This document shows positions 4,269 through 23,561 of a stretch of DNA of 23,561 nucleotides, in pieces. This stretch comes from a virus, in IMG/VR virus record IMGVR_UViG_3300036766_001044, positions 1 through 23,561 of that record; one strand, given 5' to 3'. The notes beneath the pieces were generated by a model. It saw only the letters and a list, made by a program, of their open reading frames with translations, did not search any database and was not told where the DNA came from. The stretch's first letter is position 1; every line of letters begins with the position of its first letter. Both the position numbers and the translations under genes were made by a program.

Positions 4269-4312
4269 AAAGATGATGTACAAGTTGGTCAATACATAGT
4301 TGGAAGGACTCT

Positions 4313-4531: not shown

Positions 4532-4540
4532 TTCAAGTAC

Positions 4541-4547: not shown

Positions 4548-4556
4548 AGATACCTT

Positions 4557-4784: not shown

Positions 4785-4798
4785 GGAGAAAATAAATC

Positions 4799-5127: not shown

Positions 5128-5216
5128 CGTACGCGGGGAGGTGGTATCTTCGCTTGTGGCGCACTGATTGGATGCCCCCCTCATCCCGTCTTTGCGCCGA
5201 GAAAACCCCATTGAAA

Positions 5217-5253
5217 GAGACGTCCATCTGGTACCGGTGGGCGTCTCGCTTTT
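5217..5253 (+). terminator. Terminator after the left cassette cluster
   Basis: GAGACG (5217-5222) pairs with CGTCTC (5242-5247), extended by inner CCA/TGG pairs, and is followed by GCTTTTAATT. It closes the upstream transcription unit before the virion-operon promoter. Between the attC site and here (5128-5216) I see no gene. Confidence 0.7.
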
Positions 5254-5766: not shown

Positions 5767-6140
5767 TGGTTGCGAAAAGAAAGCCCAAGGCGAAAGCCAA
5801 AGGCAAGAAGGGGGGGAAAGGTGGTAATCAAAATGCGCGCAAGCATGGCCTGTACGCAAAAAATCAACCGCCGGTTGACCCTGCGGTAGCGATTGGGGCG
5901 CAACGACGCGAAGCCATTTTAGATAAGATTATTTTGGACTTGGATGCGCTGTATTGGACGCTAAAAAAAAACGAAGAAAAGTTCCAGTGCGTCAATTCGA
6001 TCTCGAACGCGGTCACATCCGCGAACGGATGCCAGCGGACGGCGGCGCTGGTCTCGGGCAAGTTGACGATCTTGAACGAAGCCATTGAAAGGTTGTTGAA
6101 CGAAGATGATCCGTATGATGCAAGTACCACTGTCGGGTGA
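5766..6140 (+). CDS. terS: Putative terminase small subunit
   Basis: 124 aa (a GTG one codon earlier could also start it). The N-terminus is very basic (VAKRKPKAKAKGKKGGKGG) and leads into NQNARKHGLYAKN, a motif common at the start of proteins encoded just before large terminases. The rest is helical (REAILDKIILDLDALYWTL; SGKLTILNEAIERLLNEDD), which fits an oligomeric DNA-recognition subunit. It overlaps the large terminase by up to 35 nt. The assignment rests mainly on position and the NQNARKHG motif; direct HTH evidence is weak. Confidence 0.6.
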   Translation: MVAKRKPKAKAKGKKGGKGGNQNARKHGLYAKNQPPVDPAVAIGAQRREAILDKIILDLDALYWTLKKNEEKFQCVNSISNAVTSANGCQRTAALVSGKLTILNEAIERLLNEDDPYDASTTVG

Positions 6141-7765: not shown

Positions 7766-7919
7766 ACGGAACCAACCGAATCGCAGGGTGCGATTCCTCC
7801 CGGTGAAGATTTGAGCGGTTTTGGAAATCTAATAGAAGTTGATTATGGCCATGGCGGTGGATGGACTGAAATTGTCTATTGTCTGCCAGGTGAAGACCCG
7901 GCAGGTTGAAAGGTGTTTT

Positions 7920-9241: not shown

Positions 9242-11218
9242 ATGAGTAATCCACGAAATACAGAATTGCGCTTCGATAGTTTTAGTGAGAGCGCGCCGAC
9301 CAAAACTGCAAAGGGATACGAGATACTTTGCATCCACCCGTCGCAAGCGAACGGCTGGCGTTTTTCTGAGGACGTTTTGAAGAACGCGGTCAAGTACTTC
9401 GATGACGTGGAATGTTTCGCCGATCACAACGTGATGGGTGAATCGGTTCACGACCTGGCTGGCGTTTTCTACAATCCCCGTTGGGATGAGAGTCGGCCTG
9501 GCATTGTGGCCGATCTGCGTCCTGCCGGGCCTGCCGCCGATCTATTGCGGATGTACGCCGACGAAATGTTGAGTGACGAAGACCATCACCCGAACATGGG
9601 TTTCTCGCCGGTCATCATCTTCACAGCGAAAGGCGAAGACGTGGAGAATATATTGCGTGTCCGCTCTGTGGACATGGTAATCAATCCCGCGTTCAAGACA
9701 AAATTCATCGCTGAGAAATTTCAGCAAAGGAGTACTACTACGATGGAAAAGAAAATCGAACCTGTGGCGGATGTTGTCCCGGAAGAGACCATTGCCGCCA
9801 TGAGAGAAATCACCGGCGCGCAAGCTGAAATCACTGCGGCTGTACAGGGCGCGAAGGAAACGCATTTGGAAATGTGTTCCAACCTGCTGAACACGGCCCT
9901 GGATGCGGCGAGCGTGGATCTGCCGGAAGCGGCGCTCAAGATGATCCGCGAGCGTTTCCAGAACAAGACCTTCAAACCGACCGAGTTGAAGGCGGAAATC
10001 GACTCGTTCAAAAATGCCTTCGTTCAGCAATCGGCGGCGCTCTCGATTGTCGGGCCGGCACAGGTTACCGGGATGTTCAACTCCGGCGACCAACTGCAAG
10101 CGGCCATGGATGACCTGTTGGCCGCGCCGCGCGAGAAGGGCGCCGAGTCCCTGAAGGTGCATCGTTTCTCCGGCATCCGTGAAGCCTATCTCATGTTGAC
10201 GGGTGACTACGGCTTCGTGGGCGACGTGGAAGAACGGCTTGCGAAGTTTCAGGGCACGACTGCCAACTTCCCCAACCTGGTCGTGAATGCCTTGAACAAG
10301 GCTGTGGTGGCCAACTGGAACATGCTCGGCAAGGCCGGGTACAACTGGTGGGAGAAGATCGCCACCGTTGAACCGTTCGAGAGTTTGCAGTCCATCACCT
10401 GGCTTCGGCTGGGTACGATTGCCAGTCTCCCGACCGTGGCCGAAGGCGCGGAGTACACCGAACTCGCCCTGGGCGACAACGGCGAAACGTCCACCTTCAT
10501 CAAGTACGGTGGTTATCTCTCCTTCACATTGGAAGCCATGGATCGCGACGACACGCGCAAACTGCGCGCGGCTCCGCGTGAGATTGCAAGTGCGGCTATT
10601 CGCAACATCAGCGAACAGATTGCGGCTATCTTCTCGGCGTCGTCCGGGGCTGGTCCCACTCTTGCGGATGGCGGCGCGCTGTTCAATTCGACGGCCGTCA
10701 CCACCAAAGGTGGGCACGCCAACCTGTTGACGACCGCCCTCGGCACGGATTACACGGCTTGGAACACGGTTGCGGCGGCCATGTACAACCAGCCTTTGCT
10801 GGTTGCGAATGCCGTGGGTGACAATGTGCTGACCTACGGCAAGAAACAGGCGCTCGAACCGACCATCTGCCTGGTGCCGCGCGCTCTCAAAGTGGCGGCG
10901 GAAGCGTTGTTCATCCCGCGTTGGGATGTTTCTGGTTCCATTCCCGCGACTACGGCTGTGACCTGGGGCGGGCGGGTTGATCCGGTGACGGTCCCGGATT
11001 GGACAGACGCCACGGATTGGGCGGCCGTGATTGATCCGGCGCTCCTGCCGGGCGTGATGATCGGTACGCGTTACGGACTGATCCCGCAAATCATCCTGGC
11101 GGGTGAACAGACTAACCCGGCCATGTTTATGAACGATGAAAGCCGCTTGAAGGTACGTCACTTCCTGGCGACCGGCATCGGCAACTGGTCGGCGTTGCAC
11201 AACAACCACGTCGCGTAA
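9242..11218 (+). CDS. Prohead protease - scaffold - major capsid protein fusion
   Basis: 658 aa. Residues 1-165 look like an HK97-type (S78) prohead protease: H62 in CFADHN, S122 in MGFSPV, and the family-end pattern RVRSVDMVINPAF. Residues 168-330 are mostly helical and charged, like a scaffold/delta domain. From about 335 the sequence reads as a capsid of the HK97 fold, Mu gpT-like group: NFPNLVVNALNKAVV, WWEKIATVEPFES, RLGTIASLPTVAEGAEY, then IKYGGYLSFTLEAM. An in-frame ATG at 9743 with its own AAAGGAG would yield a separate scaffold-capsid product of 491 aa. GGTGA precedes the first ATG. The autoproteolytic maturation route is inferred from the family. Confidence 0.85.
   Translation: MSNPRNTELRFDSFSESAPTKTAKGYEILCIHPSQANGWRFSEDVLKNAVKYFDDVECFADHNVMGESVHDLAGVFYNPRWDESRPGIVADLRPAGPAADLLRMYADEMLSDEDHHPNMGFSPVIIFTAKGEDVENILRVRSVDMVINPAFKTKFIAEKFQQRSTTTMEKKIEPVADVVPEETIAAMREITGAQAEITAAVQGAKETHLEMCSNLLNTALDAASVDLPEAALKMIRERFQNKTFKPTELKAEIDSFKNAFVQQSAALSIVGPAQVTGMFNSGDQLQAAMDDLLAAPREKGAESLKVHRFSGIREAYLMLTGDYGFVGDVEERLAKFQGTTANFPNLVVNALNKAVVANWNMLGKAGYNWWEKIATVEPFESLQSITWLRLGTIASLPTVAEGAEYTELALGDNGETSTFIKYGGYLSFTLEAMDRDDTRKLRAAPREIASAAIRNISEQIAAIFSASSGAGPTLADGGALFNSTAVTTKGGHANLLTTALGTDYTAWNTVAAAMYNQPLLVANAVGDNVLTYGKKQALEPTICLVPRALKVAAEALFIPRWDVSGSIPATTAVTWGGRVDPVTVPDWTDATDWAAVIDPALLPGVMIGTRYGLIPQIILAGEQTNPAMFMNDESRLKVRHFLATGIGNWSALHNNHVA
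9726..9745 (+). promoter_or_regulatory. Internal ribosome-binding site and start within the protease-capsid gene
   Basis: AAAGGAG (9726-9732), 10-nt spacer, then ATG (9743-9745), in frame with the 9242 gene at residue 168, exactly at the end of the protease domain. Use of this start would make extra capsid protein relative to protease, as nested starts do in other phage head genes. Confidence 0.6.
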
Positions 11219-11317: not shown

Positions 11318-11824
11318 ATGGGTTACGTAAATGATACGCATATGGCGCAGTACATCCCGCCGAACACATTTCACTGTGTGACCGGGACCTGGACGGATGT
11401 CGCCGGTCAGGTGTCTGGGACGATTGCGCGGCATAAGGCCGCGACTGCGGAAACATCCACCATCAATATTCCGATTACGATCCCTTCCAACGCGTCCGTG
11501 TTGAAGGGTGCGAAGTTGAAGTACGTTGAAGTGGATTATGAAATTCTGGTGGCGGCCTGTACGTCCTGGACGATGAGCATCGTCAAGGTGGTGCGCGGCG
11601 CGGATACAGTGGTGGCTGTGGTCTCTGCTCCGGCTGGGACGCAACTGCTGACGGCGGCCACGACTGCCGCGACGGTTGACCAACATCGTGACCGCTTCAC
11701 GCTGACGACTCCGGTCTATATCGACGATGACGAGTATTACTTTCTGAAAATCGTTGCGATTGCCGCCGCCTCTACTACCATTGACCTGCTCTCGGCGGTG
11801 GCGTATTTTGATGAAAGGTTGTAA
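11318..11824 (+). CDS. Putative virion structural protein (beta-rich)
   Basis: 168 aa with GAGGAGA before the ATG. The protein is almost entirely beta-type, rich in Thr, Val and Ala (STINIPITIPSNASVLKGA, TMSIVKVVRGADTVVAVVS, FTLTTPVYIDDDEYYFLKI) and has no charged helices. Its position straight after the capsid and its composition fit a head decoration or head-fibre protein. A weak overall similarity in style with the 14368 gene is visible. No specific family recognised. Confidence 0.6.
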   Translation: MGYVNDTHMAQYIPPNTFHCVTGTWTDVAGQVSGTIARHKAATAETSTINIPITIPSNASVLKGAKLKYVEVDYEILVAACTSWTMSIVKVVRGADTVVAVVSAPAGTQLLTAATTAATVDQHRDRFTLTTPVYIDDDEYYFLKIVAIAAASTTIDLLSAVAYFDERL

Positions 11825-11826
11825 CG

Positions 11827-12048
11827 ATGGCCGAAGAAATCAAAATCCCTGCGCAAGTGTTGGCGTTGGCCGAGCAGTCTGCGACCGAACGCGTGCCGCA
11901 TCCGAACCCGATTGCCTGGAAGGAATATCCGGACAAGTGGGTGGTGGTCTTTGAGGATGGTCGTAAGATGACCTTTGGTAAAGACGAAGCGAAGGCGAAG
12001 TCTGCTCCTGCTCCGAAGGCCAAGCCTGCGAAGTCTGAGACTGCGTAA
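11827..12048 (+). CDS. Small hypothetical virion-operon protein
   Basis: 73 aa, starting 2 bp after the previous stop. A short folded part (PNPIAWKEYPDKWVVVFED GRKMTF) is followed by a lysine/alanine/proline tail (KSAPAPKAKPAKSETA). Comparable small proteins with KA-rich tails are common near phage head genes; the role is unknown. Confidence 0.6.
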   Translation: MAEEIKIPAQVLALAEQSATERVPHPNPIAWKEYPDKWVVVFEDGRKMTFGKDEAKAKSAPAPKAKPAKSETA

Positions 12049-12119
12049 GCAGTTTTGGAAAGCGTCGTACCCGGCAACGGGGCCGGCACGAGAAGTTCAA
12101 ACCAAGAAAGTGAGAAAGT

Positions 12120-12314
12120 ATGTCTAACCTGCCTCCTGTTTTGAAGTCGCGCAAGTTTTGGGCGGCTGTCATGGCCCTGGCGTTGGTGTTGCTCCGTTCG
12201 TTTGTTCCCAACTTTCCGATTACAGATGAGCGGCTGACCGAGATAGTGTACGTGTTGATCTCGTACATCATCGGCACGGGTCTGTCCGATATTCGCGTTG
12301 CCAGCGCGAAGTAG
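12120..12314 (+). CDS. Holin-like small membrane protein
   Basis: 64 aa. Residues 8-29 (LKSRKFWAAVMALALVLLRS) form a membrane helix after a basic start, and residues 39-57 (LTEIVYVLISYIIGTGLSD) a second one. This two-helix pattern with the LKSRKFWA start is seen in phage proteins annotated as holins. AAAGTGAGAAAG upstream gives a weak ribosome-binding site. If it is the holin, the partner lysin is not recognisable in this window. An alternative is an unrelated membrane protein. Confidence 0.55.
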   Translation: MSNLPPVLKSRKFWAAVMALALVLLRSFVPNFPITDERLTEIVYVLISYIIGTGLSDIRVASAK

Positions 12315-12335
12315 GGTGTCTCTCCTTCTCCCGAA

Positions 12336-12428
12336 GCCCCTGTTACCGAAAGTAACAGGGGCAGGGAGCGCGGCAAATGGCAGGGATGGTAAAAGGCTCG
12401 ACTGATCGAAAACGCCCCGTCCTGGGGC
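12336..12428 (+). terminator. Two hairpins in the 12315-12447 gap
   Basis: First hairpin: GCCCCTGTTAC, loop CGAAA, GTAACAGGGGC (12336-12362), a perfect 11-bp stem without a T run. Second: GCCCC/GGGGC (12414-12428) followed by TTCTGTGAGGTTTTT. They lie between the holin-like gene and the connector gene and probably modulate transcript ends. Confidence 0.5.
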
Positions 12429-12447
12429 TTCTGTGAGGTTTTTAGCA

Positions 12448-12470
12448 TCCTAAAGGATACGGTGTACCTA
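12448..12470 (+). repeat. CCTAAAGGATA...TACCTA element, copy 1
   Basis: A 23-bp element whose core CCTAAAGGATA and end TACCTA recur at 16425-16447 and 22797-22818. In this copy AAAGGA sits 11 nt before the ATG at 12470, so the element may also serve as ribosome-binding site. TCCTAAAGGA is a small inverted repeat (TCCT/AGGA). Confidence 0.6.
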
Positions 12471-13123
12471 TGTCTGATAGTTTGACGACCATCATCAGTA
12501 AGGCACAGGCGACCCTGCTCGATGCGGGGACGCGTTTTACTACTGCGACCCTGACGGCGGCTTGCCGGTTGGCGCTCACGAAGTTCAACCTGCGCGCGCC
12601 GCGTTCGGCTGGGACGTTGGAAGACGTGGTTGCCAGTCAAAAGGAATATGTTCTGAGCGGCACGGACTACGCGCGCTTGATCTCGATCTCGGATGTTCTG
12701 TTGTGGGATGCGTATGGCGACGATCACGAACCGCTGGACCATGACCAATATTTTGAAGACGACGTGGCTGTGGTCCGCTTGCGCGTTGCGCGTAATGCCG
12801 GGGAGTTCCTGGTGGTGCGCTTCACCGAAGCGTACACGGTCAACGGGTTGGACAGTGAAACCAGTAGTACGCTCCCGGCGTTCTTCGATCCAATCTTGTT
12901 GGATGGCGTGTGCTATTTTGCGTTGACCATCCGGGATGTGGGTGTGGCGGAAACCTACAAACTGGATCCCAACGCGCCGCGCAATTACGATGAATTGAAA
13001 GTGGTGTTCGGCGCGGCATTTGAAGAAGGTTTGAAAACTGCGGCGGGGCGCAAGCCTGCGGTGGGTCAACCCGACACGCGCGCCTGGAATGATGAATGGC
13101 ATAATTCGAATGTGTGGGGATAA
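12470..13123 (+). CDS. Putative head-tail connector/adaptor
   Basis: 217 aa, MSDSLTTIISKAQATLLDAG..., starting within the repeated 23-bp element. The N-terminal helices (TIISKAQATLLDAGTRF, ATLTAACRLALTKFN) followed by a beta region with many Asp residues resemble neck/adaptor proteins that sit under the portal. The position after head genes and before tail genes supports this. No motif is decisive; a general structural role is the safe call. Confidence 0.5.
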   Translation: MSDSLTTIISKAQATLLDAGTRFTTATLTAACRLALTKFNLRAPRSAGTLEDVVASQKEYVLSGTDYARLISISDVLLWDAYGDDHEPLDHDQYFEDDVAVVRLRVARNAGEFLVVRFTEAYTVNGLDSETSSTLPAFFDPILLDGVCYFALTIRDVGVAETYKLDPNAPRNYDELKVVFGAAFEEGLKTAAGRKPAVGQPDTRAWNDEWHNSNVWG

Positions 13124-13128
13124 AGTAT

Positions 13129-14358
13129 ATGTTGAGCATTGATCCGATCTTGTCTACGGCCATGTTGTATGGTTCCGGTGAACCTGTGATACAGGCCGTG
13201 GTGAATGGCGTTACGTATGACGTGCGGCGCTACCGTTGGGATAACCTGGCTTTGGATATCGAGATTCAGGGTGTGGTGGCGGCGGTCAACCAGGACACAT
13301 TACTGCTCAAGCGCGGCATGCAAGTGGCGGGAGTCGATTACCTGGTGAATGTGGGAACGTTCTTTATCGAAAGTTTTATGATTACGCCTGCGCAAACCAG
13401 TCGGATAAAAGCGCATGCATTTCCGTCCGTGGCCTTGCAGGATTTGGGCGCTGGAAGCGCCACGTACAAGGATATTATGAACACGGTGGGGACTGCGATC
13501 GGTGTCACCTTCGATGCGTTGACCGGCAACTGGTGGGACGGTTGGGATGCGTTGGAAACGGGGCGCACGTTGTCTATGATCTCCTCCCGGTTGTTGCAAG
13601 GTGTGCTCATGTCACACCGGCGCGCGCATATGTTTCAGCGGCAGACGAAAATCCTGGTCAGTAACCCGGCCTGGGAAGCGGGGACGATTGCGTCTTCTGC
13701 GTACGCATTTCCCGAACAATATTCCGTTTTTGTGCGCGCGTTGCGTCACTTGATTATTTACACGTATGATGAAAACAACTTTCAATCGAGCGCATACTAC
13801 AGTCCGCCCGCGCCTGCAACGGCGCCATCTATCAACATCGGTTATCTGCATTCGGGCGTGGGCGATCCGTCTCTGCTCGGTAAGGATGGCGGCGGGGAAT
13901 TTTCTTTTGTGCAAATGCCCGACCTGGCTTTGGAGCAGGGGGAAGCGGTGACGATGGCCGGGTTTGCCGGAGTGCGCCGACTGAGTTTTATCGAGTACTT
14001 CAATTGGGGCGGCGCGCCCGCCTGGCGGCAGGTGGTGAGTGATCTGACCTGGCAAAGCAATACCGGTTCGGGGTATGGGCAAGTCCCAATTCAGGCTGTG
14101 GACGTGACCATCATCAATAACATCGAGAACATCGTTAACAACATCGTCAACAACACGATCAACAACATCATTCAGCAATTCTTCGAAGAGTACACCATCA
14201 ATAATATCGGGAATACGGCGGATAAGGTGAATGTGAACACGGCGAGTTTTGGAATGTTGTTCAACTCCTCCCATGCCCTGGTGCAAGCGTGCCTGGATGT
14301 GTTGGATGATCATCAGCATGGTCCGATGACCTGGTATCTGTACGATAATTTTCAATAG
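13129..14358 (+). CDS. Putative tail protein with Asn/Ile repeat stalk
   Basis: 409 aa from the ATG at 13129, 5 bp after the previous stop. The first 320 residues are mixed and beta-rich (VNGVTYDVRRYRWDNLALD, MISSRLLQGVLMSHRRAH). Residues about 326-355 are a run of NNI units (IINNIENIVNNIVNNTINN) encoded by repetitive AACAACATC-type DNA; such Asn/Ile heptad-like stretches form trimeric stalks in phage fibres. The end (NVNTASFGMLFNSSHALVQ, DDHQHGPMTWYLYDNFQ) looks like a small tip domain. It is a candidate for the tail body or fibre base of a short tail; the exact family is not recognised. Confidence 0.55.
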   Translation: MLSIDPILSTAMLYGSGEPVIQAVVNGVTYDVRRYRWDNLALDIEIQGVVAAVNQDTLLLKRGMQVAGVDYLVNVGTFFIESFMITPAQTSRIKAHAFPSVALQDLGAGSATYKDIMNTVGTAIGVTFDALTGNWWDGWDALETGRTLSMISSRLLQGVLMSHRRAHMFQRQTKILVSNPAWEAGTIASSAYAFPEQYSVFVRALRHLIIYTYDENNFQSSAYYSPPAPATAPSINIGYLHSGVGDPSLLGKDGGGEFSFVQMPDLALEQGEAVTMAGFAGVRRLSFIEYFNWGGAPAWRQVVSDLTWQSNTGSGYGQVPIQAVDVTIINNIENIVNNIVNNTINNIIQQFFEEYTINNIGNTADKVNVNTASFGMLFNSSHALVQACLDVLDDHQHGPMTWYLYDNFQ

Positions 14359-14367
14359 GAGAATTGC

Positions 14368-14769
14368 ATGGCTACTCCCAACACGTTGCCTATTTTTGTC
14401 AAAACGCCCGCGCTCGGCTCGGTGTTGATCTCGGCGGCGAATGCCAGCCGTACGGGAACGGGAACTATTTTGCAAGTCATCGCGGGGGCGGTGAACGGGA
14501 CGCGCATCAACAAGATTTTCATCAAGGCGCAAGGCAATACCACCGCGGGTATGGTGCGCTTATTTCTCAAGACCAATCTGGGTGATTATCACCTGTGGAA
14601 GGAAATCAAGGTGACTGCGATTACTGCTAGTGCTATCGTCCAGACCTTTAATTTTGATATTTTATTGCCTGGTGAAAATGCTCTGGTGCTTCCCACGGGT
14701 TGGTATCTGTATGCCAGCACGGAAAAGGCCGAGATATTCATTGTGCAAGCGCACGGAGGGGATTACTAA
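14368..14769 (+). CDS. Small beta-rich structural protein
   Basis: 133 aa with AGGAG before the ATG. Beta-type sequence: GSVLISAANASRTGTGTIL, RINKIFIKAQGNTTAGMVR, LPTGWYLYASTEKAEIFIV. The pattern resembles small phage structural proteins with a beta-sandwich, and the style is close to the 11318 product. The TAA overlaps the ATG of the next gene, so it is probably made together with the fibre protein. A virion surface or fibre-cap role is inferred. Confidence 0.55.
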   Translation: MATPNTLPIFVKTPALGSVLISAANASRTGTGTILQVIAGAVNGTRINKIFIKAQGNTTAGMVRLFLKTNLGDYHLWKEIKVTAITASAIVQTFNFDILLPGENALVLPTGWYLYASTEKAEIFIVQAHGGDY

Positions 14770-16424
14770 TGAGCGGCTTCAATCCTAATCCGTTCGCGTT
14801 CTGGTTTGGTGAAGGAAATCCGTTCGACCCGGCGACGCTTCCGACCGGCGTCGGCGCGAGTTACCCGGGGTTGGTGGTGACGAATGTGACCGATGGTACA
14901 CAGGTCAATTATTTGTTCTATGTCTTCGCCGCGGGTGCGATGTTAATCGGGATTGCAAGCGATGGGACATTCAATGTCTTCGACGCGCTTGGCGTGTTGC
15001 AGGTGGGTTTCAACGCGCTGGGACAGTTCCTGGCGGCTGGCGGTAATTGGATTCTTGACGCCACTGGTTTGACGATCACCGGTGTACAATTTATTGAAAA
15101 TCATACCGCAACAATAGGCGCATATGCCCGGCGTGCAAGGCGCGGCTTTCAGGAATTGTCCAGCAAGCCCGCCTATCTCATCGAATTTATCGATGATGCT
15201 GTGGCGGCAAATCTCATCACTATAAATGCAGACATCGAGACCGGCAGTCTGGCAACGGGATACTCGGCGTACACCAACTGGAGCGCGGACAACGTTCATC
15301 CGCACGCGGGGGTCTACTCTGCCAAAATTGAAATGAGCAACGCCAACGCACTCACTACAAACAAATACGCAGTGACGGCTGGCACTTCTTACCGCGTCAC
15401 GTATTGGGCGGATATGGATTTCAACGCGGGCGAGGTATTGACTGGGCAGGCGAAATGGTACAACGCGGTTCCCACACTTCTCAAGACCGACACCATCAAT
15501 GCCTCCAATGAAAAATATGGCTACCATCAGCGCCGGGTCACTCTGCTGGCTCCAGCAGGCGCAACTCAACTTGAACTGAACCTGTACCTATCCACAACGG
15601 GCGCGGCTGGGCATTACTGCTGGGTGGATGATCTGGTCGTCGAAGCCATCACGGAGTACGCCGCACTTCGCCTGAGCGACTCGGGTGTGGATTTGATGGA
15701 TGAGTTCGGCGTCATTGCATCTTTCAGCGCGGGAAAGATGGACGGGATCGCCACCAAAGCGCCAAGTGGCACAGGTGCTATCACTGCCACGGAAGCCTAC
15801 TGGCAATGGCATACGACGCGAAAAATCTTGTCGTTGTACGACGGTCAACGCGAGCGGGCGCTCTCTGCGATGGGTTGGTTGCCATACGCGTACCAGATTG
15901 GCGGTGGGCCGGCTGATGTATCTGCTTCAGGTACCAACCTGGCACTCAATGGCGGTGTGATGGCAACGCCAGTGAATCTCACTGCCAGCATGTTGCTGGA
16001 AAGCGTCTCGTGCTGGAATGGCGATACGTCCCTTGCGCGTGGGTGGAACTGGACGTTGTATGAGCAATATCTCAATAATGGCAATGCCGGTGAAAACACA
16101 CTGACGTGTGTCGCGTATGGCACGGCGGCGGAGGTGTTCACTCCGGGCGCGGCCAGTCTGCGGACGATTGACGCGGCGTCGAAGCCCGCCTATCTGCCGC
16201 CGGGCCTGTATTGGCTGTGTATTCAAAACACGAACACGTCGCGCACTTTTGGATTAGGCGGTGTGGGCGTGGGAACGATGGGGCTCAATACGTCGCAATA
16301 TAAAACGCTGGCGATCCCGCTCGGCGCTACGCTGGACTTTGTCGCGGCCACCTGGAGTACGGCAGGCAAGGTATATCTTGTTCGGTTGAATGGCCGTGTG
16401 TTCGGTCAAACCACATCGTTCTAA
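14769..16424 (+). CDS. Putative receptor-binding / tail fibre protein
   Basis: 551 aa from the ATG overlapping the previous TAA (the longer reading from 14700 lies inside that gene). Residues 1-115 are a glycine-rich beta-repeat region (IGIASDGTFNVFDALGVLQ, LTITGVQFIENH) as in fibre shafts. Residues about 150-305 resemble a jelly-roll carbohydrate-binding module: WSADNVHPHAGVYSAKIEM, YAVTAGTSYRVTYWADMDF, and CWVDDLVVEAI at its end. The C-terminal 200 residues are Asn-, Thr- and Gly-rich, with YLPPGLYWLCIQNTNTSRT. Last large gene of the operon, the usual place of the host-recognition protein. Glycan binding on the cell surface is inferred. Confidence 0.65.
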   Translation: MSGFNPNPFAFWFGEGNPFDPATLPTGVGASYPGLVVTNVTDGTQVNYLFYVFAAGAMLIGIASDGTFNVFDALGVLQVGFNALGQFLAAGGNWILDATGLTITGVQFIENHTATIGAYARRARRGFQELSSKPAYLIEFIDDAVAANLITINADIETGSLATGYSAYTNWSADNVHPHAGVYSAKIEMSNANALTTNKYAVTAGTSYRVTYWADMDFNAGEVLTGQAKWYNAVPTLLKTDTINASNEKYGYHQRRVTLLAPAGATQLELNLYLSTTGAAGHYCWVDDLVVEAITEYAALRLSDSGVDLMDEFGVIASFSAGKMDGIATKAPSGTGAITATEAYWQWHTTRKILSLYDGQRERALSAMGWLPYAYQIGGGPADVSASGTNLALNGGVMATPVNLTASMLLESVSCWNGDTSLARGWNWTLYEQYLNNGNAGENTLTCVAYGTAAEVFTPGAASLRTIDAASKPAYLPPGLYWLCIQNTNTSRTFGLGGVGVGTMGLNTSQYKTLAIPLGATLDFVAATWSTAGKVYLVRLNGRVFGQTTSF

Positions 16425-16447
16425 ACCTAAAGGATATGGAATACCTA
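16425..16447 (+). repeat. CCTAAAGGATA...TACCTA element, copy 2
   Basis: It differs from copy 1 at only a few of 23 positions (the core CCTAAAGGATA and the end TACCTA are identical). It lies directly after the fibre gene stop and 12 bp before the ATG at 16460; the following AAAGGAG is the ribosome-binding site. Confidence 0.6.
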
Positions 16448-16459
16448 AAGGAGTCTCGC

Positions 16460-16819
16460 ATGGAATATGAATTCAAAGACTTTCGTGTCATCCTGTCCGG
16501 CGACGAGCAGGTGGCGATAGCCACGATCCACGTCAAGCCATGGATCCCGGAAAACCCGGGCTACGACCTGGGTCAATTGACGTTGCGCGAGAAGGTTGTG
16601 GAGGTGGTCAAGTTTCCACAGCCGGAGAAGCGCGATGTGTTGCAGGAAATGATCCTGGGCCGGCATAAGAGCGGCTTGGTGGCCTACGTGGCCGGGTATC
16701 CCGAGCTGACGTCTCAAGATGTGATGAAAAAATATTGGGAGGACAAGCATCGCGACTTTATGGAGCGGGCGCGGCGCCGGGAACATAAGCAAATGCAAAA
16801 GGAGCTGGATCGCAGATAA
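16460..16819 (+). CDS. Hypothetical protein, end of virion operon
   Basis: 119 aa from the ATG preceded by AAAGGAG; an in-frame ATG at 16436 falls inside the repeated element and is not used here. The first half is beta-like (YEFKDFRVILSGDEQVAIA), the second half helical and strongly charged (KKYWEDKHRDFMERARRRE, then HKQMQKELDRR). Could be a tail-associated or assembly protein; no family recognised. A perfect hairpin follows the stop. Confidence 0.65.
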   Translation: MEYEFKDFRVILSGDEQVAIATIHVKPWIPENPGYDLGQLTLREKVVEVVKFPQPEKRDVLQEMILGRHKSGLVAYVAGYPELTSQDVMKKYWEDKHRDFMERARRREHKQMQKELDRR

Positions 16820-16822
16820 GCA

Positions 16823-16850
16823 AGTCTCCCACCTGGCCGGATGGGAGACT
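16823..16850 (+). terminator. Hairpin after the last virion-operon gene
   Basis: AGTCTCCCA (16823-16831) and TGGGAGACT (16842-16850) form a perfect 9-bp stem, three bases after the stop. No T run follows, so termination may rest on the next hairpin at 17082. Confidence 0.5.
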
Positions 16851-17081
16851 CATTGGTCGGCCTGGGTCGCCCGTCTCCGGGTACGTGCAGGTCAACGTTC
16901 GTTTTGATTGTAGCACTTGTATAGATGGTTGTCTATGTGTGGTTCTGCGCGTGAGGCGTCATCCGCCGACTGAGGGGGATGGCTCTTGATCGTGCCCTGG
17001 CTCGGCTCGTGGGCGGAGTCGCAAGCGGTCGAGAAGGCGGGAGCGGAAGCAGTCGGCGCTCTGGTCGGCGGTGAGCGAAAA

Positions 17082-17108
17082 CGCAAACGGAGTTTGCGCG
17101 AATTTTTT
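17082..17108 (+). terminator. Rho-independent terminator of the virion operon
   Basis: CGCAAAC, loop GGA, GTTTGCG (17082-17098), then CGAATTTTTT: a compact stem with a six-T run on the plus strand. It separates the plus-strand operon from the convergent cassette genes. The gap 16851-17165 holds no gene that I can support. Confidence 0.75.
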
Positions 17109-17165
17109 CCCCGGAAATAGGACAATCCCGTTGGATTATTGGCGGGGATTGTTGGTGGGCCGGCT

Positions 17166-17270
17166 GGCCAACGGCTGGCTTTAGCGGCGGCGCATTGTAA
17201 AGACACGCCCGCTAAAAACAACCTACTAAATCGGCGCGACTCGCGCCGTCCGCTGCAAGCATTGTTGGGC
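17166..17270 (-). repeat. attC: Integron attC site of cassette C
   Basis: Read on the minus strand: GCCCAAC (R'', 17270-17264), then GCTTGCAGCGGACGGCG. The right arm CGCCGCCGCTAAAGC is followed by GTTGGCC (R', 17172-17166). The inner arms pair (AGCGG/CCGCT, CGGCG/CGCCG) with an unpaired A between AGCGG and CGGCG. The loop carries an extra palindrome GGCGCGAGTCGCGCC. Length 105 nt. It contains the stop of the upstream cassette gene. Confidence 0.75.
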
Positions 17271-17468
17271 TTCTTCTTCGCTGATGATCCATTCACAACG
17301 AGGACAATACCCAACCCATGAGCGTTCTTCATCACGCTCTTCTGTTGCCACTTCGACATACTCACGCATTTCTAAAAATCCTTTATGACAATGCGGGCAA
17401 TTCGGTTTTGGCATTACGTACTTTTGCGGGTGATACACCACGCGAATTTTGTTATTTTTCTTTTGCAT
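17226..17468 (-). CDS. Cassette C: small double-CxxC zinc-ribbon-like protein
   Basis: 80 aa starting MQKKNNKIRVVYHPQKYVMP. It has NCPHCHKGF (CxxC) and, 27 residues on, GYCPRCEW (CxxC), enough for a zinc ribbon. The ATG at 17468 is 7 bp after the attC core of cassette B, the usual cassette start. A longer reading to 17579 would run back through that attC and is rejected. The C-terminus AQQCLQRTARVAPI is encoded by the attC arm. Function unknown; small zinc-ribbon proteins are common among cassette genes. Confidence 0.65.
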   Translation of the reverse strand: MQKKNNKIRVVYHPQKYVMPKPNCPHCHKGFLEMREYVEVATEERDEERSWVGYCPRCEWIISEEEAQQCLQRTARVAPI

Positions 17469-17475
17469 GATAGAA

Positions 17476-17569
17476 GCCCAACGGTTTGCGTAACCCGCAG
17501 AAACGGGTTGTGCAAGACCCTTCAATTTTGCCCCGACGTAGTTTCTGTTGGGTTCACGCTTTGTTCGGC
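17476..17569 (-). repeat. attC: Integron attC site of cassette B
   Basis: Minus strand: R'' GCCGAAC (17569-17563), spacer AAA, L'' GCGTGAACCC; later L' GGGTTACGC, spacer AAACC, R' GTTGGGC (17482-17476). L'' and L' pair perfectly except for one extrahelical G (GCGT-G-AACCC against GGGTT-ACGC). R'' and R' pair with a central mismatch. A separate hairpin (TTGC...GCAA) is formed in the loop part. Length 94 nt. This is the textbook attC arrangement. Confidence 0.75.
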
Positions 17570-17728
17570 GTCGCTCCATCCGAAGAAGCGAATACCTTTA
17601 TTCGTCCATCCGAAATCTTCGCCGTGATGTAATAACCAACTTTCAGCCTGCTCATAAGTTTCAAACATCGCTGGCTTCCCATCAAAACGCAAAAAATCTC
17701 GTAACCCAAAATCAATGATTGACCACAT
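17522..17728 (-). CDS. Cassette B: hypothetical protein
   Basis: 68 aa, MWSIIDFGLRDFLRFDGKPA..., with AAAGGATAG before the ATG, 21 bp after the R' core of cassette A. The middle (FETYEQAESWLLHHGEDFGWT, split by loops) looks like a small alpha/beta fold with aromatic residues. The C-terminus DAEQSVNPTETTSGQN is encoded by the left attC arm. No family recognised. Confidence 0.6.
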   Translation of the reverse strand: MWSIIDFGLRDFLRFDGKPAMFETYEQAESWLLHHGEDFGWTNKGIRFFGWSDAEQSVNPTETTSGQN

Positions 17729-17748
17729 AGTCTATCCTTTCACGAAAC

Positions 17749-17806
17749 GCCGAACGGCTGTTTTTAGCGGCGGTGTTCTTCCGTCCGCTGCAAAACTTTG
17801 TTAGCA
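17749..17806 (-). repeat. attC: Integron attC site of cassette A
   Basis: Minus strand: R'' TGCTAAC (17806-17800), L'' GTTTTGCAGCGGACGG, short loop, L' CCGCCGCTAAAAAC, R' GTTCGGC (17755-17749). The arms pair (AGCGG/CCGCT, CGG/CCG, GTTTT/AAAAC) with the unpaired A between AGCGG and CGG that is also present in the sites at 17166 and 18308. Length 58 nt, near the known minimum. Confidence 0.7.
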
Positions 17807-17988
17807 AGCGAGGAAGAACGCAACGACCGCAAGACCATAATAAAATCTTCGCGCGCATCACCCGTAAGCAGAGCCAAGAACTCTTTGCGCTCACTTTCGG
17901 ATGCGCGAAATTTTTTGATAAAGACAGGATCGGGAGCGGGCTTTCGACCTGCTCCTTTTCGTGAACCGCCGTGACTATTCACGCGCAT
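17764..17988 (-). CDS. Cassette A, second gene: small basic protein
   Basis: 74 aa from the ATG at 17988, which overlaps the end of the preceding gene by 14 nt. The N-terminus GGSRKGAGRKPAPDP is an AT-hook-like/GAGRK basic tail; then KFRASESERKEFLALLTG, REDFIMVLRSLRSS, a helical pair that could be a ribbon-helix-helix or a small antitoxin-like fold. The C-terminus SSLANKVLQRTEEHRR is encoded by attC. With the upstream gene it forms a two-gene cassette under one promoter, an arrangement common for toxin-antitoxin pairs in cassettes (inference, not shown by motifs). Confidence 0.55.
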   Translation of the reverse strand: MRVNSHGGSRKGAGRKPAPDPVFIKKFRASESERKEFLALLTGDAREDFIMVLRSLRSSSLANKVLQRTEEHRR

Positions 17989-18187
17989 TCTCAATGGCGT
18001 TTTCCAATAGAGATATAACAACCGATTTTTTTACAAATTTATTGTCACTATCAACCCATCGGCTACCAGATTCATTGGCGAGCATGTAAATGCTCTCAGC
18101 GCAATCGTTTACTGTGCCAGTTGAAATGTCGCCCCAATTCATGACATATTGGCTATCAATATTGTCTACGCAAAACTGATTGTTCAT
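17975..18187 (-). CDS. Cassette A, first gene: hypothetical protein
   Basis: 70 aa, MNNQFCVDNIDSQYVMNWGD..., acidic, ending in a helical KKSVVISLLENAIENARE. Ribosome-binding site AGGAG is 7 nt before the ATG. It has its own strong promoter and a palindromic operator-like site (18211-18267). It overlaps the next gene. AT-rich against the phage background. No family recognised. Confidence 0.6.
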   Translation of the reverse strand: MNNQFCVDNIDSQYVMNWGDISTGTVNDCAESIYMLANESGSRWVDSDNKFVKKSVVISLLENAIENARE

Positions 18188-18210
18188 TTCAAACTCCTGT
18201 TTTTTGAATT

Positions 18211-18267
18211 GCTAAACCGTATTGTTTAGCGTGAAAACAGTATACCGTAATCAAATAGAGTTGTCAA
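18211..18267 (-). promoter_or_regulatory. Cassette A promoter and operator-like palindrome
   Basis: Minus strand: TTGACA (18267-18262), 17-bp spacer, TATACT (18244-18239), an almost perfect sigma70 promoter. Just downstream of the start point is the perfect inverted repeat GCTAAAC-6-GTTTAGC (18211-18230), a likely repressor site or 5' hairpin. This promoter can also read through cassettes B and C. Confidence 0.75.
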
Positions 18268-18307
18268 GGTTTTTAGATCGCCAGTTTTCGAGCAACTTTG
18301 CTCCGCT

Positions 18308-18362
18308 TGCTAACATTGAGATTAGCGGCGGAGATCGTCCGTCCGCTGGTTGAGAGTTGGCC
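18308..18362 (-). repeat. attC: Integron attC-like site at the head of the right cluster
   Basis: Minus strand: GGCCAAC (18362-18356), AACCAGCGGACGG, short loop, CCGCCGCTAAT, GTTAGCA (18314-18308). The arm sequences CAGCGGACGG and CCGCCGCTAA are the same as in the sites at 17749 and 17166. Length 55 nt, marginally short. It marks the upstream boundary of cassette A. Its own cassette gene, if any, is not clear: 120 bp separate it from the end of the gene at 18482. Confidence 0.6.
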
Positions 18363-18439
18363 GCGTGGGAGGTCCGCGGCCTGGGGATTAGATGGCAGTT
18401 TTCATGCGTGACATGTGTACTGTTGCAATTCTGCAACAT

Positions 18440-18467
18440 CCTGGCGGCGGGATCGCCTGCCGCCAGG
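18440..18467 (-). terminator. Hairpin at the end of the 19943-18482 operon
   Basis: CCTGGCGGC (18440-18448) and GCCGCCAGG (18459-18467) form a perfect 9-bp stem 15 bp after the stop of the last operon gene. There is no T run. Two other short palindromes follow: GTTGCA/TGCAAC at about 18422-18437 and GGCCGCG/CGCGGCC at 18359-18383. Confidence 0.5.
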
Positions 18468-18481
18468 CGGGGCCGGCTGGC

Positions 18482-18943
18482 TTACGCTTTGCCGATGATC
18501 TTCTTGGCGTAGTCGTATTGCAATTCTGGATTTTCGCCCAGGTCTGATTTGCCTGGACGCTTGGCGATTTCCACGCGCACGGCGACGGGGGCGGGGAGTT
18601 TGGTCTCTCCGAGTTCGCACGCATCGACGGCGATGATCGTGGCGAGGACCTCCGGCCAGATGCGGACACCGCTTTTGGTGTAGCGTCCGCCGCGCAATTT
18701 GTAGGCGTGTTTGCTATTCTGAAAATCGTGCATGACGGTATCAGCGATAAAGGTCTCGGTCGGGCCGGCTGGCGCGGGAGCGGCGGCGGCCTGCTGTAGG
18801 CCGGTGCGGATGGCGGCGATGTCGGATTGGATGGCGTCAATGTCGGCGTACATGTCGGCCAACTCGCGGCGCATGACGTCGAGTAGGGACATCATGTCTG
18901 CGCGAAATTGTTCGGCGGGGGAAAGTGTGGACGGGGTGGTCAT
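18482..18943 (-). CDS. Coiled-coil hypothetical protein
   Basis: 153 aa from the ATG preceded by AGGAGA; the open frame extends upstream but without a ribosome-binding site. Residues 5-50 are a long helical, probably coiled-coil part (SPAEQFRADMMSLLDVMRR, ADMYADIDAIQSDIAAIRT), then an Ala/Pro linker, then a folded domain with KLRGGRYTKSGVRIWPEVL and PVAVRVEIAKRPGKSDLGE. An oligomerising, possibly nucleic-acid-binding protein; no family recognised. Last of a four-gene set. Confidence 0.65.
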   Translation of the reverse strand: MTTPSTLSPAEQFRADMMSLLDVMRRELADMYADIDAIQSDIAAIRTGLQQAAAAPAPAGPTETFIADTVMHDFQNSKHAYKLRGGRYTKSGVRIWPEVLATIIAVDACELGETKLPAPVAVRVEIAKRPGKSDLGENPELQYDYAKKIIGKA

Positions 18944-18995
18944 GGAAAAATCTCCTGCCCGATATTTTTGGCCCTCGGGCGGGGGCGCGGATGAA

Positions 18996-19295
18996 TTAGA
19001 GACTGAATTGTTTTTGGATCTCTGCCGTGTACTTGGCGGGGGAAAATTCCTTGATAGGTGTTGGGCGCATGAAATAACGCTCGCTGACCTGCAAGCAGGT
19101 GTCATAAATTGCACCTGTTAGGCCGTGCGTGATGCACTCGCCAACCACAAAGGCGTTGTCCTTCATAGTGAGCGGCGGGACGCATTCGAGAAAATAATAG
19201 TAATCGGCCAGGCTGATTTCCGTCCAGCCACGTGCTACTAACTGCGCGCTGGTGCTGGTTTTGAGTTCATCGTAGTATTTCAAAATCTCGTCCAT
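18996..19295 (-). CDS. Hypothetical protein
   Basis: 99 aa, MDEILKYYDELKTSTSAQLV..., with helical start, a Tyr-rich part (LADYYYFLECVPPLT) and a short C-terminal helical segment. It begins 4 bp after the previous gene's stop (19300) and is followed 52 bp later by the coiled-coil gene, so it belongs to the same operon. Unknown function. Confidence 0.6.
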   Translation of the reverse strand: MDEILKYYDELKTSTSAQLVARGWTEISLADYYYFLECVPPLTMKDNAFVVGECITHGLTGAIYDTCLQVSERYFMRPTPIKEFSPAKYTAEIQKQFSL

Positions 19296-19299
19296 GATG

Positions 19300-19590
19300 T
19301 TACCAATCCTGATCTTGATCTACTGTCTCGCGCTGGTCTGCGAGTTGCATCGCCATCTGCCAATCGAGCGGCAGAGCAATCGGCGCGGCTTTGTACAGGG
19401 TGGCGGTGTAATCGCCGTGTCCGCGGTGGCTGATATAGTAGCCTGCGCGTTTGAGTGGGTTGAGTGCGGCGGCGAGGGCGAGCGTGCCGGAACCGATATG
19501 TCGCGTGATGCCGGTCTGTGCATTGTACGACCAGTAGCAATCGTCGAAACAATCTGCGCACCAGGCGCGACTAAACTCGATGCGGGTCAT
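19300..19590 (-). CDS. Hypothetical protein with N-terminal CxxC
   Basis: 96 aa, MTRIEFSRAWCADCFDDCYW...; three cysteines in eight residues (CADCFDDC) suggest a metal site. The later part is alpha/beta (LALAAALNPLKRAGYYIS, YTATLYKAAPIALPLDWQM). Its ATG overlaps the TGA of the gene before it (ATGA), indicating coupled translation. Unknown family. Confidence 0.6.
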   Translation of the reverse strand: MTRIEFSRAWCADCFDDCYWSYNAQTGITRHIGSGTLALAAALNPLKRAGYYISHRGHGDYTATLYKAAPIALPLDWQMAMQLADQRETVDQDQDW

Positions 19591-19943
19591 GACTGCACCT
19601 CCGCGAATTCAACCCAGGTGGGGACGGTCGCCGCTGGCGGTCTGCCGAACATTTCGACAACCTGGCTACCCTGCGCAAGCCAGACGCACAGGATGGACGC
19701 AAACGGCACAGTTAGGTTGTAGCGACCTGGTACGCGGACCTCGGCGGTACGGGTCGCGCCGTTGGCGGAGTTGATCTCTACCACTACCTGGGCGGCGTTG
19801 TGGATGATCTGCGCCATGAGTCGGAGGCGGTCGTCAATATATGGGGCCGTGATGATCTGCGCGCGTGACCGATCGGACGGTGTGCAATTGCGGCAGGGCC
19901 GGGCGTAGCATTCACTGGTTGCAATCTCTTCACATTGTTTCAT
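19587..19943 (-). CDS. Hypothetical cysteine-containing protein
   Basis: 118 aa. The ATG at 19943 follows AAAAAAGGAGAATAGTC, a strong Shine-Dalgarno whose GGAGAATAGTCA is shared with the leader of the gene at 1206. The N-terminus has CEEIATSECYARPCRNC, a four-cysteine cluster that could bind metal. The rest is beta-type (AQVVVEINSANGATRTAEV, YNLTVPFASILCVWLAQGS). First gene of the four-gene set. Function unknown. Confidence 0.6.
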   Translation of the reverse strand: MKQCEEIATSECYARPCRNCTPSDRSRAQIITAPYIDDRLRLMAQIIHNAAQVVVEINSANGATRTAEVRVPGRYNLTVPFASILCVWLAQGSQVVEMFGRPPAATVPTWVEFAEVQS

Positions 19944-20091
19944 GACTATTCTCCTTTTTTGGTACCCGCGAAACGCTCGCGGGTTAGATGGTGTGTGACT
20001 TGCAAAACCTTTGCTCTTCAAACCGGGACCGGGTGGGCGGGCGACAACCTAAACCACTTGAGACGCGTTCAGTCCGTGGAGAGTCTCTACC

Positions 20092-20129
20092 GCGTGTGGC
20101 TGGCGGGCAACCCCGCCCAAGCCACACGC
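20092..20129. other. Strong hairpin downstream of the SLOG gene
   Basis: GCGTGTGGCT (20092-20101) and AGCCACACGC (20120-20129) with inner GGGC/GCCC form a stable hairpin just past the SLOG stop. No T run on the minus strand, so it is an mRNA-end or pause structure rather than a clear terminator. The gap 19944-20138 otherwise shows no gene. Confidence 0.45.
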
Positions 20130-20138
20130 CCCCCCGAC

Positions 20139-20699
20139 CTAGAGCAGGGCCGGCTGATGCGGGGGCGCAAACAACCAAAACGACTGACCGAGCCAGGAGA
20201 CGAGGCGCGCCGGAACTGCGAGCAATGGAGGCAAGCCGCCCATGCCAGCGCAGGAGACCAGCACCGGGATGCCCTGCCGCAACGCGTGGCGGGCGACTTT
20301 GAGTGAGCCGATGCCAGGCTGGAAAAACACGGCCGCGCCGCAACCCACCAGGGCCGCGACCGAGCGAGCCATGAGCCGAGCGACCAGGGGGATGGAGAGT
20401 GGACCGCCAGCGAGCCAAGAGACAGGATGCCCGCACAACTGCACAGCCTGAACTGCCGAGCCTGGGAAAGAGCCTGCGCCAGATTGAGCAAATGCGGCGA
20501 ACACATGAACGCAAGAACCAAAAGCCGCGGATTGAAAACTGATTTGATCTGCGCCAGTGGCACAGCCAGCATGAAGCACAAAGCCGGAATTGAGCAATGA
20601 GCCGGTGAACTGGACGCAAGCCTGCCCAGCGGGTGACGAATGAACCAGCGAGCGTGAGCCGCCGACGAGAACGGAAGAATTAGAGGGGATGGAGAACAT
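20139..20699 (-). CDS. SLOG-domain (DprA/LOG-like) protein
   Basis: 186 aa from MFSIPSNSS; the frame is open to 20852 but the upstream part has no start signal. It has the Rossmann-like nucleotide-binding pattern of the SMF/DprA-LOG superfamily: VLVGGSRSL at the first strand, VLHAGCATGADQISFQ as the glycine-rich loop, LCGHPVSWLAGGP in the middle, and LRQGIPVLVSCAG near the end. Such proteins bind nucleotides, nucleotide-derived signals or single-stranded DNA. In phages they occur as recombination mediators or as parts of conflict systems. Which applies here is not visible. An isolated domain with no fused effector. Confidence 0.65.
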   Translation of the reverse strand: MFSIPSNSSVLVGGSRSLVHSSPAGQACVQFTGSLLNSGFVLHAGCATGADQISFQSAAFGSCVHVFAAFAQSGAGSFPGSAVQAVQLCGHPVSWLAGGPLSIPLVARLMARSVAALVGCGAAVFFQPGIGSLKVARHALRQGIPVLVSCAGMGGLPPLLAVPARLVSWLGQSFWLFAPPHQPALL

Positions 20700-21152
20700 G
20701 GCTATTTGACCTTGATATTGGTTTCGAGATATTTGGGTGTGGCTGATTTTGATGACCAATTGCAATGCTTGAAGCAATGGCGGGATGACGAATAACTGCC
20801 CACATAACCATATTGCAAAGCCGCCAAACCGACCTGGCGAAAGAGCGACCAAAAAACGAGATTGAACTGAACTGAACCGGGATTATAAAAACACATGGCA
20901 ACCTGACCTTTTGGAATGGATTGAACTATGCCCCAATGATACTTGATTTATATAAATAAAGCAAGGGTGAGAAGATGAGGAGAAGATTAGAAAAACAGCG
21001 ACCCACCCAGCCCGACGCGAGACGCGCAAACCCGACGCGGCCCCCAGACGGAGACCGGAGCCGCCTGCCCGATGGGTGGTTTGAATGGATGGATAGAAAC
21101 ATGCCCCGATTATGGTGGGGTAGTGGGTGAGGGCTGGCCGTGCAAGTGTGCG

Positions 21153-21252
21153 CCAAAAGTACTAATTGCGGTCAGATAAGGCATGGCAAAAAATGGGTTG
21201 TATGTCAACCGCATTTTTTGTCCATGTTACTTTGCGCAATTAGTTCTTTTGG
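21153..21252. repeat. 100-nt two-tier palindrome
   Basis: The outer arms CCAAAAGTACTAATTGCG (21153-21170) and CGCAATTAGTTCTTTTGG (21235-21252) match at 17 of 18 positions. Inside, CATGG, AAAAAATG and GGTTG pair with CAACC, CATTTTTT and CCATG around a TATGT loop, with only small bulges. It may be a replication-origin structure, a structured RNA or a small non-autonomous element with terminal inverted repeats. No T run follows, so it is not a simple terminator. Confidence 0.75.
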
Positions 21253-21387
21253 ACCGCTTGCACGAGTCCAGACCCATCCCACTATAATTACCCACCGGGG
21301 GCATGTTTACTGGTAGGTGTTGATCCCTGTGCGCGAATAGCGTGAGTACTACTACTAGCATCCCTTTATGAAATTGCGCATGACGGG

Positions 21388-21429
21388 CAGGCCGTGAGTG
21401 CTGGTGGACGTCCAGCACATCACGGCCTG
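21388..21429. repeat. Palindromic hairpin
   Basis: CAGGCCGTG (21388-21396) pairs with CACGGCCTG (21421-21429), and inner GTGCTGG pairs with CCAGCAC. One A/AT bulge separates the two stems and the loop is TGGACGT. No T run. It lies in the non-coding region with other palindromes. Confidence 0.65.
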
Positions 21430-21632
21430 AGCCGGGCGCGCAGGGTGTGGGTTTTGATCTGCGGCGTACCCGTCCGTCAAGAAAAGATTTGCTTGGCACG
21501 TACAAGAAAGTATGGCACGTTCAAGAACTGCATTGCTCTGGCTATGCCTTTACTTCCGGGCATAGCCGCTCTGCGTGGGTCTTTTCGCGTGCAGTTGTTG
21601 AAACGATGAGGAACGAAGGTTGCAAAGAAAAA

Positions 21633-21656
21633 CCCCGATTGCTCGGGGCTTCTTTT
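21633..21656. terminator. Bidirectional terminator
   Basis: CCCCGA-TTGC-TCGGGG followed by CTTCTTTT on the plus strand and by TTTTTCTTTG on the minus strand. It terminates the RHH-like gene (minus). Confidence 0.8.
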
Positions 21657-21876
21657 ACCTGATCTTCTTCGCTATGATGCGGATGGCTTCGCTTCGATTG
21701 GGACTGATGCGTTTGAGTGCGGCGATAGTCTCGTCATCGAGATAGTCGCCGTAAACTTTGGCGTTGGTGCCGATCACTTCGGTGGGACGGCCTAGTTTTT
21801 TGCCTTCGCCTGCGGTGCGCTTGCCTCCCCAAGTGTTCAACTTTCGAGTTTTGTATTTGATTTTTGCTTCGCTCAT
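21655..21876 (-). CDS. Putative ribbon-helix-helix DNA-binding protein
   Basis: 73 aa, AGGAGATCAAC before the ATG. A basic N-terminal tail (SEAKIKYKTRKLNTWGGKR) and an LGRPTEVIG strand-like stretch are followed by LDDETIAALKRISPNRSEA and IRIIAKKIR, the usual two helices of RHH/CopG-like repressors. It has a consensus promoter with a palindrome over the -10, and a bidirectional terminator, so it forms a single-gene unit. Copies of TGGCACGT lie on both sides. It may be the element's repressor, copy-control or partition-type DNA-binding protein (inference). Confidence 0.65.
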   Translation of the reverse strand: MSEAKIKYKTRKLNTWGGKRTAGEGKKLGRPTEVIGTNAKVYGDYLDDETIAALKRISPNRSEAIRIIAKKIR

Positions 21877-22148: not shown

Positions 22149-22230
22149 CGGCCTGCGCATGATCCGCTCGCCGTGAAAACTGAGCGAGTGAAGCGCGTGT
22201 ATGTCACGCCTGAGCATCGTCGAAGAGTCT

Positions 22231-22333
22231 GCTCTTGATCTGTGGCGGTTGAGGCCGCCACCCCCGAAGGGCGCATCCGCTCTTGATCTGTGGCGGTTGA
22301 GGCCGCCACCCCCGAAGGGCGCATCTGCTCTTG
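22231..22333 (+). repeat. 48-bp tandem repeat, two copies plus partial third
   Basis: The unit starts GCTCTTGATCTGTGGCGG at 22231 and 22279, with a partial GCTCTTG at 22327. The two full copies are identical except for the last position. Each unit holds a GTGGCGG/CCGCCAC hairpin and a CCCCCGAAGGG mini-hairpin. Confidence 0.9.
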
Positions 22334-23508: not shown

Positions 23509-23561
23509 AGCGGGTGATGGGACTCGAACCCACGATATCTTGCTTGGGAAGCAAGCGTTCT
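23509..23561 (-). repeat. attR: Right attachment-site repeat (3' part of tRNA-Gly, runs out of window)
   Basis: Identical to 1-53. On the minus strand it reads as the anticodon arm (CCC), T arm and acceptor 3' strand of tRNA-Gly without CCA. The 5' part of the tRNA should lie beyond 23561, so this is probably the end at which the functional gene is kept. The window stops exactly where the repeat stops. Confidence 0.85.

Follow-up and report, generated by a model that had tools for sequence, protein, structure and literature searches.

Two integron cassette clusters without an integron integrase in a prophage of a probable Anaerolineales-type host

The DNA analysed here (the window, 23,561 nucleotides) is very probably a prophage of an Anaerolineales-type bacterium that carries two CALINs, the cassettes of which would be moved by an integron integrase (IntI) of the host acting in trans. 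A CALIN is a cluster of attC sites and gene cassettes without an integron integrase. The attC sites are genuine, no intI gene accompanies them, whole cassettes differ between near-identical phages, the arrays recur at one position in a phage family, and a cassette of that family is shared with a chromosomal integron. A CALIN inside a phage-like element had been proposed in a preliminary description of the sequence, and the results below support it.

The window is the entire IMG/VR virus record IMGVR_UViG_3300036766_001044 and is best read as a prophage of ~23.6 kb cut at its attachment repeats, given the tRNA attachment repeats, the adjoining integrase and the terminase, portal and capsid genes. 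Repeat comparison and RF00005 show that both ends (1–53 and 23509–23561) consist of one exact 53-bp direct repeat, which corresponds to the 3′ portion of a tRNA-Gly(CCC) gene; the tRNA match comes from RF00005, the anticodon CCC (Gly) being our own reading. Next to the left copy lies a gene for a phage-type tyrosine integrase (82–933, minus strand; PF00589, 8.7e-24), which is XerA/XerC-like and not an IntI. The plus strand encodes the terminase large subunit (terL, 6106–7626; PF17289 and PHROG terminase families), which defines the phage family, a portal protein (7839–9233; phrog_10963, 8.6e-18) and a protease-major capsid fusion (9242–11218; PF25209, 6.9e-20, and phrog_133). The terL relatives in bacterial genomes are overwhelmingly from Chloroflexota, the closest of them (55–60%) belonging to Anaerolineae/Anaerolineales or to unplaced Chloroflexi, and the best match among deposited phage genomes (50,697 phage records) is at 31%. 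An Anaerolineales-type host (Chloroflexota) is the best explanation of these comparisons, the record itself consisting of the virus alone. The tRNA attachment sequence recurs in two relatives (L033:2138–2212 and L026:2508–2583; 89–92% over ~75 bp, the 53-bp core being identical in L033), which suggests an integration site common to the family. In the non-structural end region, positions 22204–22300 contain a short tandem duplication, seen as the repeated peptides MRPSGVAASTATDQE.

The attC sites were located with a covariance model (R2) for which 27 attC sites were taken from host-order contigs that carry intI, with none of the window's sequence in the training set; it was used in place of the published IntegronFinder/HattCI attC model. 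The natural loop was retained in 12 of the 27 training sites and trimmed in 15, and loop length is thus modelled as an insertion. A first model (R1), with the loop trimmed in all training sites, was good for short-looped sites only, and R2 was built with natural loops for this reason. A hand-made scanner for R″/R′ was dropped, being unspecific, missing sites and assigning wrong strands.

An unfiltered search of the window with R2 gave five full attC sites with E-values from 2e-14 to 1.5e-8, well clear of background, the next best match having an E-value of 0.48. Three of them lie on the minus strand within 640 bp and belong to array 1: 17166–17270, at the 3′ end of the array (105 nt; 59.8 bits, E 2.2e-14), 17476–17569 (94 nt; 48.5 bits, E 2.9e-11) and 17749–17805 (57 nt; 41.0 bits, E 3.4e-9; R1 E 7.9e-6). 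The other two lie on the plus strand within 675 bp, in array 2: 4455–4547 (38.7 bits, E 1.5e-8) and 5039–5127, at the end of the array (41.6 bits, E 2.3e-9). The preliminary description had listed four minus-strand sites of 55–105 nt; the lengths agree and three of the sites are confirmed by R2, but the fourth, at the 5′ edge of array 1 (18308–18355), is degenerate. Only its inner arms are matched (E 0.53), the match being confined to 18323–18348 (11.3 bits), and its left spacer is ~8 nt short. The arm CAGCGGACGG/CCGCCGCTAA is common to three sites of the array 1 region, as had been claimed; array 1 itself is real, while the plus-strand array 2 (4299–5127) had been missed. As a positive control, R2 recovered five attC sites outside its training set in another integron contig. 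As a negative control, it was run on 950 kb of further related loci of bacterial genomes and gave one match at E<0.1; attC was found in 1 of 61 such related loci, most being without. A single attC-like site (L091:12072–12194, minus strand, 32.8 bits) lies close to a related terminase gene in a contig of Ornatilinea. Six other IMG/VR contigs (L054, L056, L057, L058, L060 and L062) also have sites of the CAGCGGAC type, which were picked out by pattern and confirmed by R2; these contigs need not be members of the window's phage family.

The sites have the anatomy of attC, with R″/R′ cores, L″/L′ arms, an unpaired base and a covarying structure. Over 43 phage attC sites, in an alignment fitted to the model, pair covariation was 0.487, compared with 0.139 for shuffled and 0.06–0.10 for slid alignments. 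The folding z-scores of the bottom-strand DNA are modest (-1.7 to -2.3), and the minimum-energy fold leaves R″/R′ unpaired at two sites. Some sites have deviating R′/R″ cores (GTTGGCC, GTTCGGC, GTTGACA) and may therefore be poor substrates. It is barely credible that the repeats are ordinary phage hairpins, such as terminators or RNA elements, that merely resemble attC. The arms are G+C-rich hairpins and terminator-like stems lie nearby, but the match to a model of intI-linked attC, core boxes and spacing included, contradicts this explanation, as do the cassette-gene layout, the junctions at GTT and the lack of any Rfam family match (the Rfam search returned tRNA matches only and none to an attC family).

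The genes between the sites are arranged as in gene cassettes, with small ORFs in one orientation. Array 1 comprises cassettes A, B and C on the minus strand and array 2 cassettes D and E on the plus strand, A and E each holding two ORFs. The small genes fit between the sites as first described: the ATG lies 14–27 nt past the core and the stop inside the next attC. A similar pattern is found for 44 ORFs in arrays of the phage family, which typically start 13–48 nt past the core and mostly stop inside the next attC. Cassette A contains two overlapping ORFs, the first of 70 aa (17975–18187) and the second of 74 aa with a GGSRKGAGRKP motif (17764–17988), preceded by a promoter-like TTGACA-17-TATACT (18239–18267, 11/12 consensus matches). 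Directly downstream of this promoter-like site lies an operator-like inverted repeat, GCTAAACAATACGGTTTAGC (18211–18230), and the combination with the overlapping ORFs suggests a gene pair under its own regulation. A pair with a similar layout and a GGANRGQGRKP protein is found in L002:2100–2730. Cassette B encodes a protein of 68 aa with no function assigned (17522–17728), and cassette C one of 80 aa (17226–17468) with a weak zinc-ribbon match under the Pfam cut-off (Zn_ribbon_19, 1.9e-5).

Array 2, which has two full attC sites and one half site, begins with a GTTGGAA core (4299–4305) joined to the phage leader, as aligned with L001:454–460 of a sister contig. The phage side has no attC half; the core is a candidate attI-like or secondary site. 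Cassette D has one ORF (4313–4531; 72 aa, no function assigned), also present in L001. Cassette E is a fused cassette: its first ORF (4557–4784) is followed by a truncated left-half attC inside the cassette (~4751–4786, 11.4 bits with R2) and then by a second ORF of 81 aa (4799–5044). A hairpin resembling an intrinsic terminator was found by a simple scan ~90 nt past the array (5206–5252). Searches of Pfam, PHROG, PADLOC and NCBIfam gave no confident function for the window cassettes. When two window cassette proteins were compared with 281 host-order genomes, one had no match and the other one weak match (32% identity, E 3.4e-4); the sister contig was the sole viral relative found for the cassette D protein, and array 1 DNA had no relatives in the 50,697 phage records.

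The preliminary description had also stated that an integron integrase is missing, and this is borne out. The integrase at 82–933 is the sole tyrosine recombinase seen in the window and scores 14.4 bits against a TIGR02249 cut-off of 265; there is no intI beside the arrays, which hence do not form a complete integron. None of the 24 virus records examined, which are related or contain attC and include fragments, gave an IntI match, and a search by eye of four 5′ array boundaries recognised no shared attI-like motif. On the host side, examined at the level of the order, IntI scores above the curated cut-off in 87 of 251 sampled genomes. Two genomes with related terL loci are above this cut-off, and a third has its IntI split over two frames; in the host-type genome G011, which carries a related terL locus, intI is followed by at least 10 attC sites. 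The phage attC type matches that of the host-order integrons, the same arms being found in both. It is very unlikely that the phage's own tyrosine recombinase, rather than host IntI, moves the cassettes. That enzyme does belong to the same superfamily, but it resembles XerA and phage integrases, falls far short of the integron-integrase cut-off, and its gene adjoins the tRNA att site, which accounts for its role; in addition, IntI occurs widely in the host order and the attC type is that of the host.

The arrays are not confined to the window. Among 66 viral loci with a related terL, 20 contain attC, with 43 sites in total. Of these sites, 38 lie at most 4 kb upstream of terL, a region that accounts for one quarter of the searched sequence, and every one of the 38 has the orientation of terL; where more than 3 kb upstream of terL is available, attC is present in 16 of 33 loci. 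Two pairs of attC-bearing loci are near-duplicates (L006/L046 and L292/L293), so that the independent number is ~18. In 16 of 19 arrays a terminator-like hairpin follows the last attC within 400 nt, compared with 21% at random positions (our own simple scan; array 2 of the window and L001 share one terminator). The loci L033, L044, L023 and L026 have a variable stretch that is flanked upstream by the same gene and downstream by a hairpin. Since the clusters stand at one recurrent place without an enzyme to move them, the host integron machinery probably loads them. In the window, the accessory operon that ends in array 1 occupies 16900–20852 on the minus strand. Its counterpart in L002 and L003 lies on the upstream side of terL and reads in the same direction as that gene, so that the window seems to have the module in an inverted or relocated form.

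Differences between relatives follow the boundaries of whole cassettes. The sister contig G001, from which loci L001 and L144 were taken, matches the window at 98–100% identity for most of the length that the two have in common, with one stretch of the portal gene at 91%. Locus L144 is 100% identical to window positions 11436–21816, which span array 1 and both its flanks. In array 2, G001 has three extra cassettes relative to the window (L001:703–1702). The junction reads CAAGTACGTTGGGCAG in the window, and CAAGTACGTTAGGCGC (left) and CAAACCGTTGGGCAG (right) in L001; the change therefore lies within CGTT, the recombination core, as in gain or loss of whole cassettes at G^TT. In L003, a 67% relative, the flanks of array 1 are adjacent, and the stretch between them holds CCGCCACTAATCTCAATGTT (L003:165–183); this sequence and the right half of the degenerate site 18308–18355 are 95% identical. 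From its sequence, L003 appears to have an empty array-1 site, a single case in which ~22 nt are also missing. The cassette-precise presence and absence that distinguishes cassettes from ordinary contiguous phage genes is thus seen at array 2 and, in this one apparent case, at array 1. The related pair L006/L007 also differs in an array-type region. At the end of contig G001, a tRNA gene (L001:229–297, 45 bits) lies just before an attC, and tRNA may therefore be cassette cargo.

Two further explanations bear on these comparisons. Misjoining of host integron contigs to phage contigs via repeats, an artefact to which attC repeats can give rise by breaking or misjoining assemblies, might be suspected because contig G001 ends inside array 2. 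This is extremely unlikely, as the second contig contains array 1 together with the phage flanks on either side at 100% identity, and as many contigs from other samples have arrays between conserved phage genes. The other explanation is that a stretch of host integron was acquired once, by illegitimate or homologous recombination, and that its attC sites are now inert passengers. Degenerate and half sites do exist (18308–18355, 4751–4786 and half arms in L033 and L007), and the phage has no intI. We nevertheless consider a single capture unlikely, since the difference between near-identical phages amounts to exactly three cassettes at a GTT core, ~18–20 family members have arrays in the same position and orientation with largely different cassettes, and strong covariation maintains the pairing of the arms. 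The precise cassette differences could also stem from inter-phage recombination following a rarer IntI event.

The phage arrays and the chromosomal integrons have a cassette in common. A C5-cytosine methyltransferase cassette of phage L052 is 67–70% identical over ~210–219 aa to a cassette of genome G270, where the gene sits between two attC sites of an intI-bearing chromosomal integron. A DNA methyltransferase of phage type (phrog_757) is the product of a further phage cassette.

For the favoured reading, action of host IntI in trans, the following course may be envisaged. During lysogeny or infection, host IntI would act on the folded single-stranded bottom strand of attC and would, at G^TT, insert cassettes into the phage genome or excise them from it. 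The upstream phage operon would transcribe the cassettes by read-through as far as the terminator, while cassette A may use its own promoter-like site. In this way the phage could swap small accessory genes with chromosomal integrons and carry them between cells, moving cassettes by integration or transduction as suggested earlier. A more ambitious proposal, which we put forward tentatively and to which we give somewhat less than even weight, is that a Chloroflexota phage lineage has evolved a dedicated docking place for cassettes, at the point where an early operon ends, ahead of the terminator and on the upstream side of terL. With host IntI acting in trans, this would be an integrase-less mobile integron platform that exchanges genes such as methyltransferases with chromosomal integrons.

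Phage CALINs as such are already known. Qi et al. 2023 (PMC9892861) reported 17 of them, in scattered phages from a set of 10,705 phage genomes, and of the six phage attC sites that were tested in that study, five were recombined with attI1 by IntI1; this result, although obtained with other phages, makes the action of host IntI plausible. The open-licence literature searched yielded no report of cassettes that dock at one recurrent place throughout a phage family and show turnover and sharing with the host. The recurrent locus, the host-shared cassettes and the turnover open two questions to direct test, namely whether phage genomes are edited by host IntI and whether cassettes spread between cells through phages, and the family arrays are a source of cassette-encoded accessory genes, methyltransferases included, in Chloroflexota phages. 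The arrays resemble the phage CALINs of Qi et al. 2023 in being clusters of attC sites and cassette genes without IntI inside phage genomes. They differ in belonging to a family of Chloroflexota phages where attC stands at one recurrent place in about half of the loci that have sufficient sequence upstream, in the presence of two arrays in one prophage, in the turnover between near-identical phages and in the cassette shared with a chromosomal integron. Some phages of Vibrio anguillarum, described in the same study, have captured segments of the chromosomal integron: they carry part of the host's integron, its intI included, and excision takes place at attC sites; these are likewise temperate phages with host-type cassettes, whereas here the tRNA att site is used and the arrays are internal. 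The arrays are also like the sedentary chromosomal integrons of Anaerolineales (G011, G270) in their attC arms (AACAAAGCGTGCACC...GGTAACGCAAACCGTTRGGC and GCAGCGGAC...CCGCTRA) and gene layout. In those integrons, however, intI stands beside a long array, while the phage arrays are short (2–7 attC sites), have no intI and have at most a candidate attI. Phage CALINs were thus previously known as scattered cases, and what is new is a family of phages in which the cassette position recurs and is probably served in trans by the IntI of the host.
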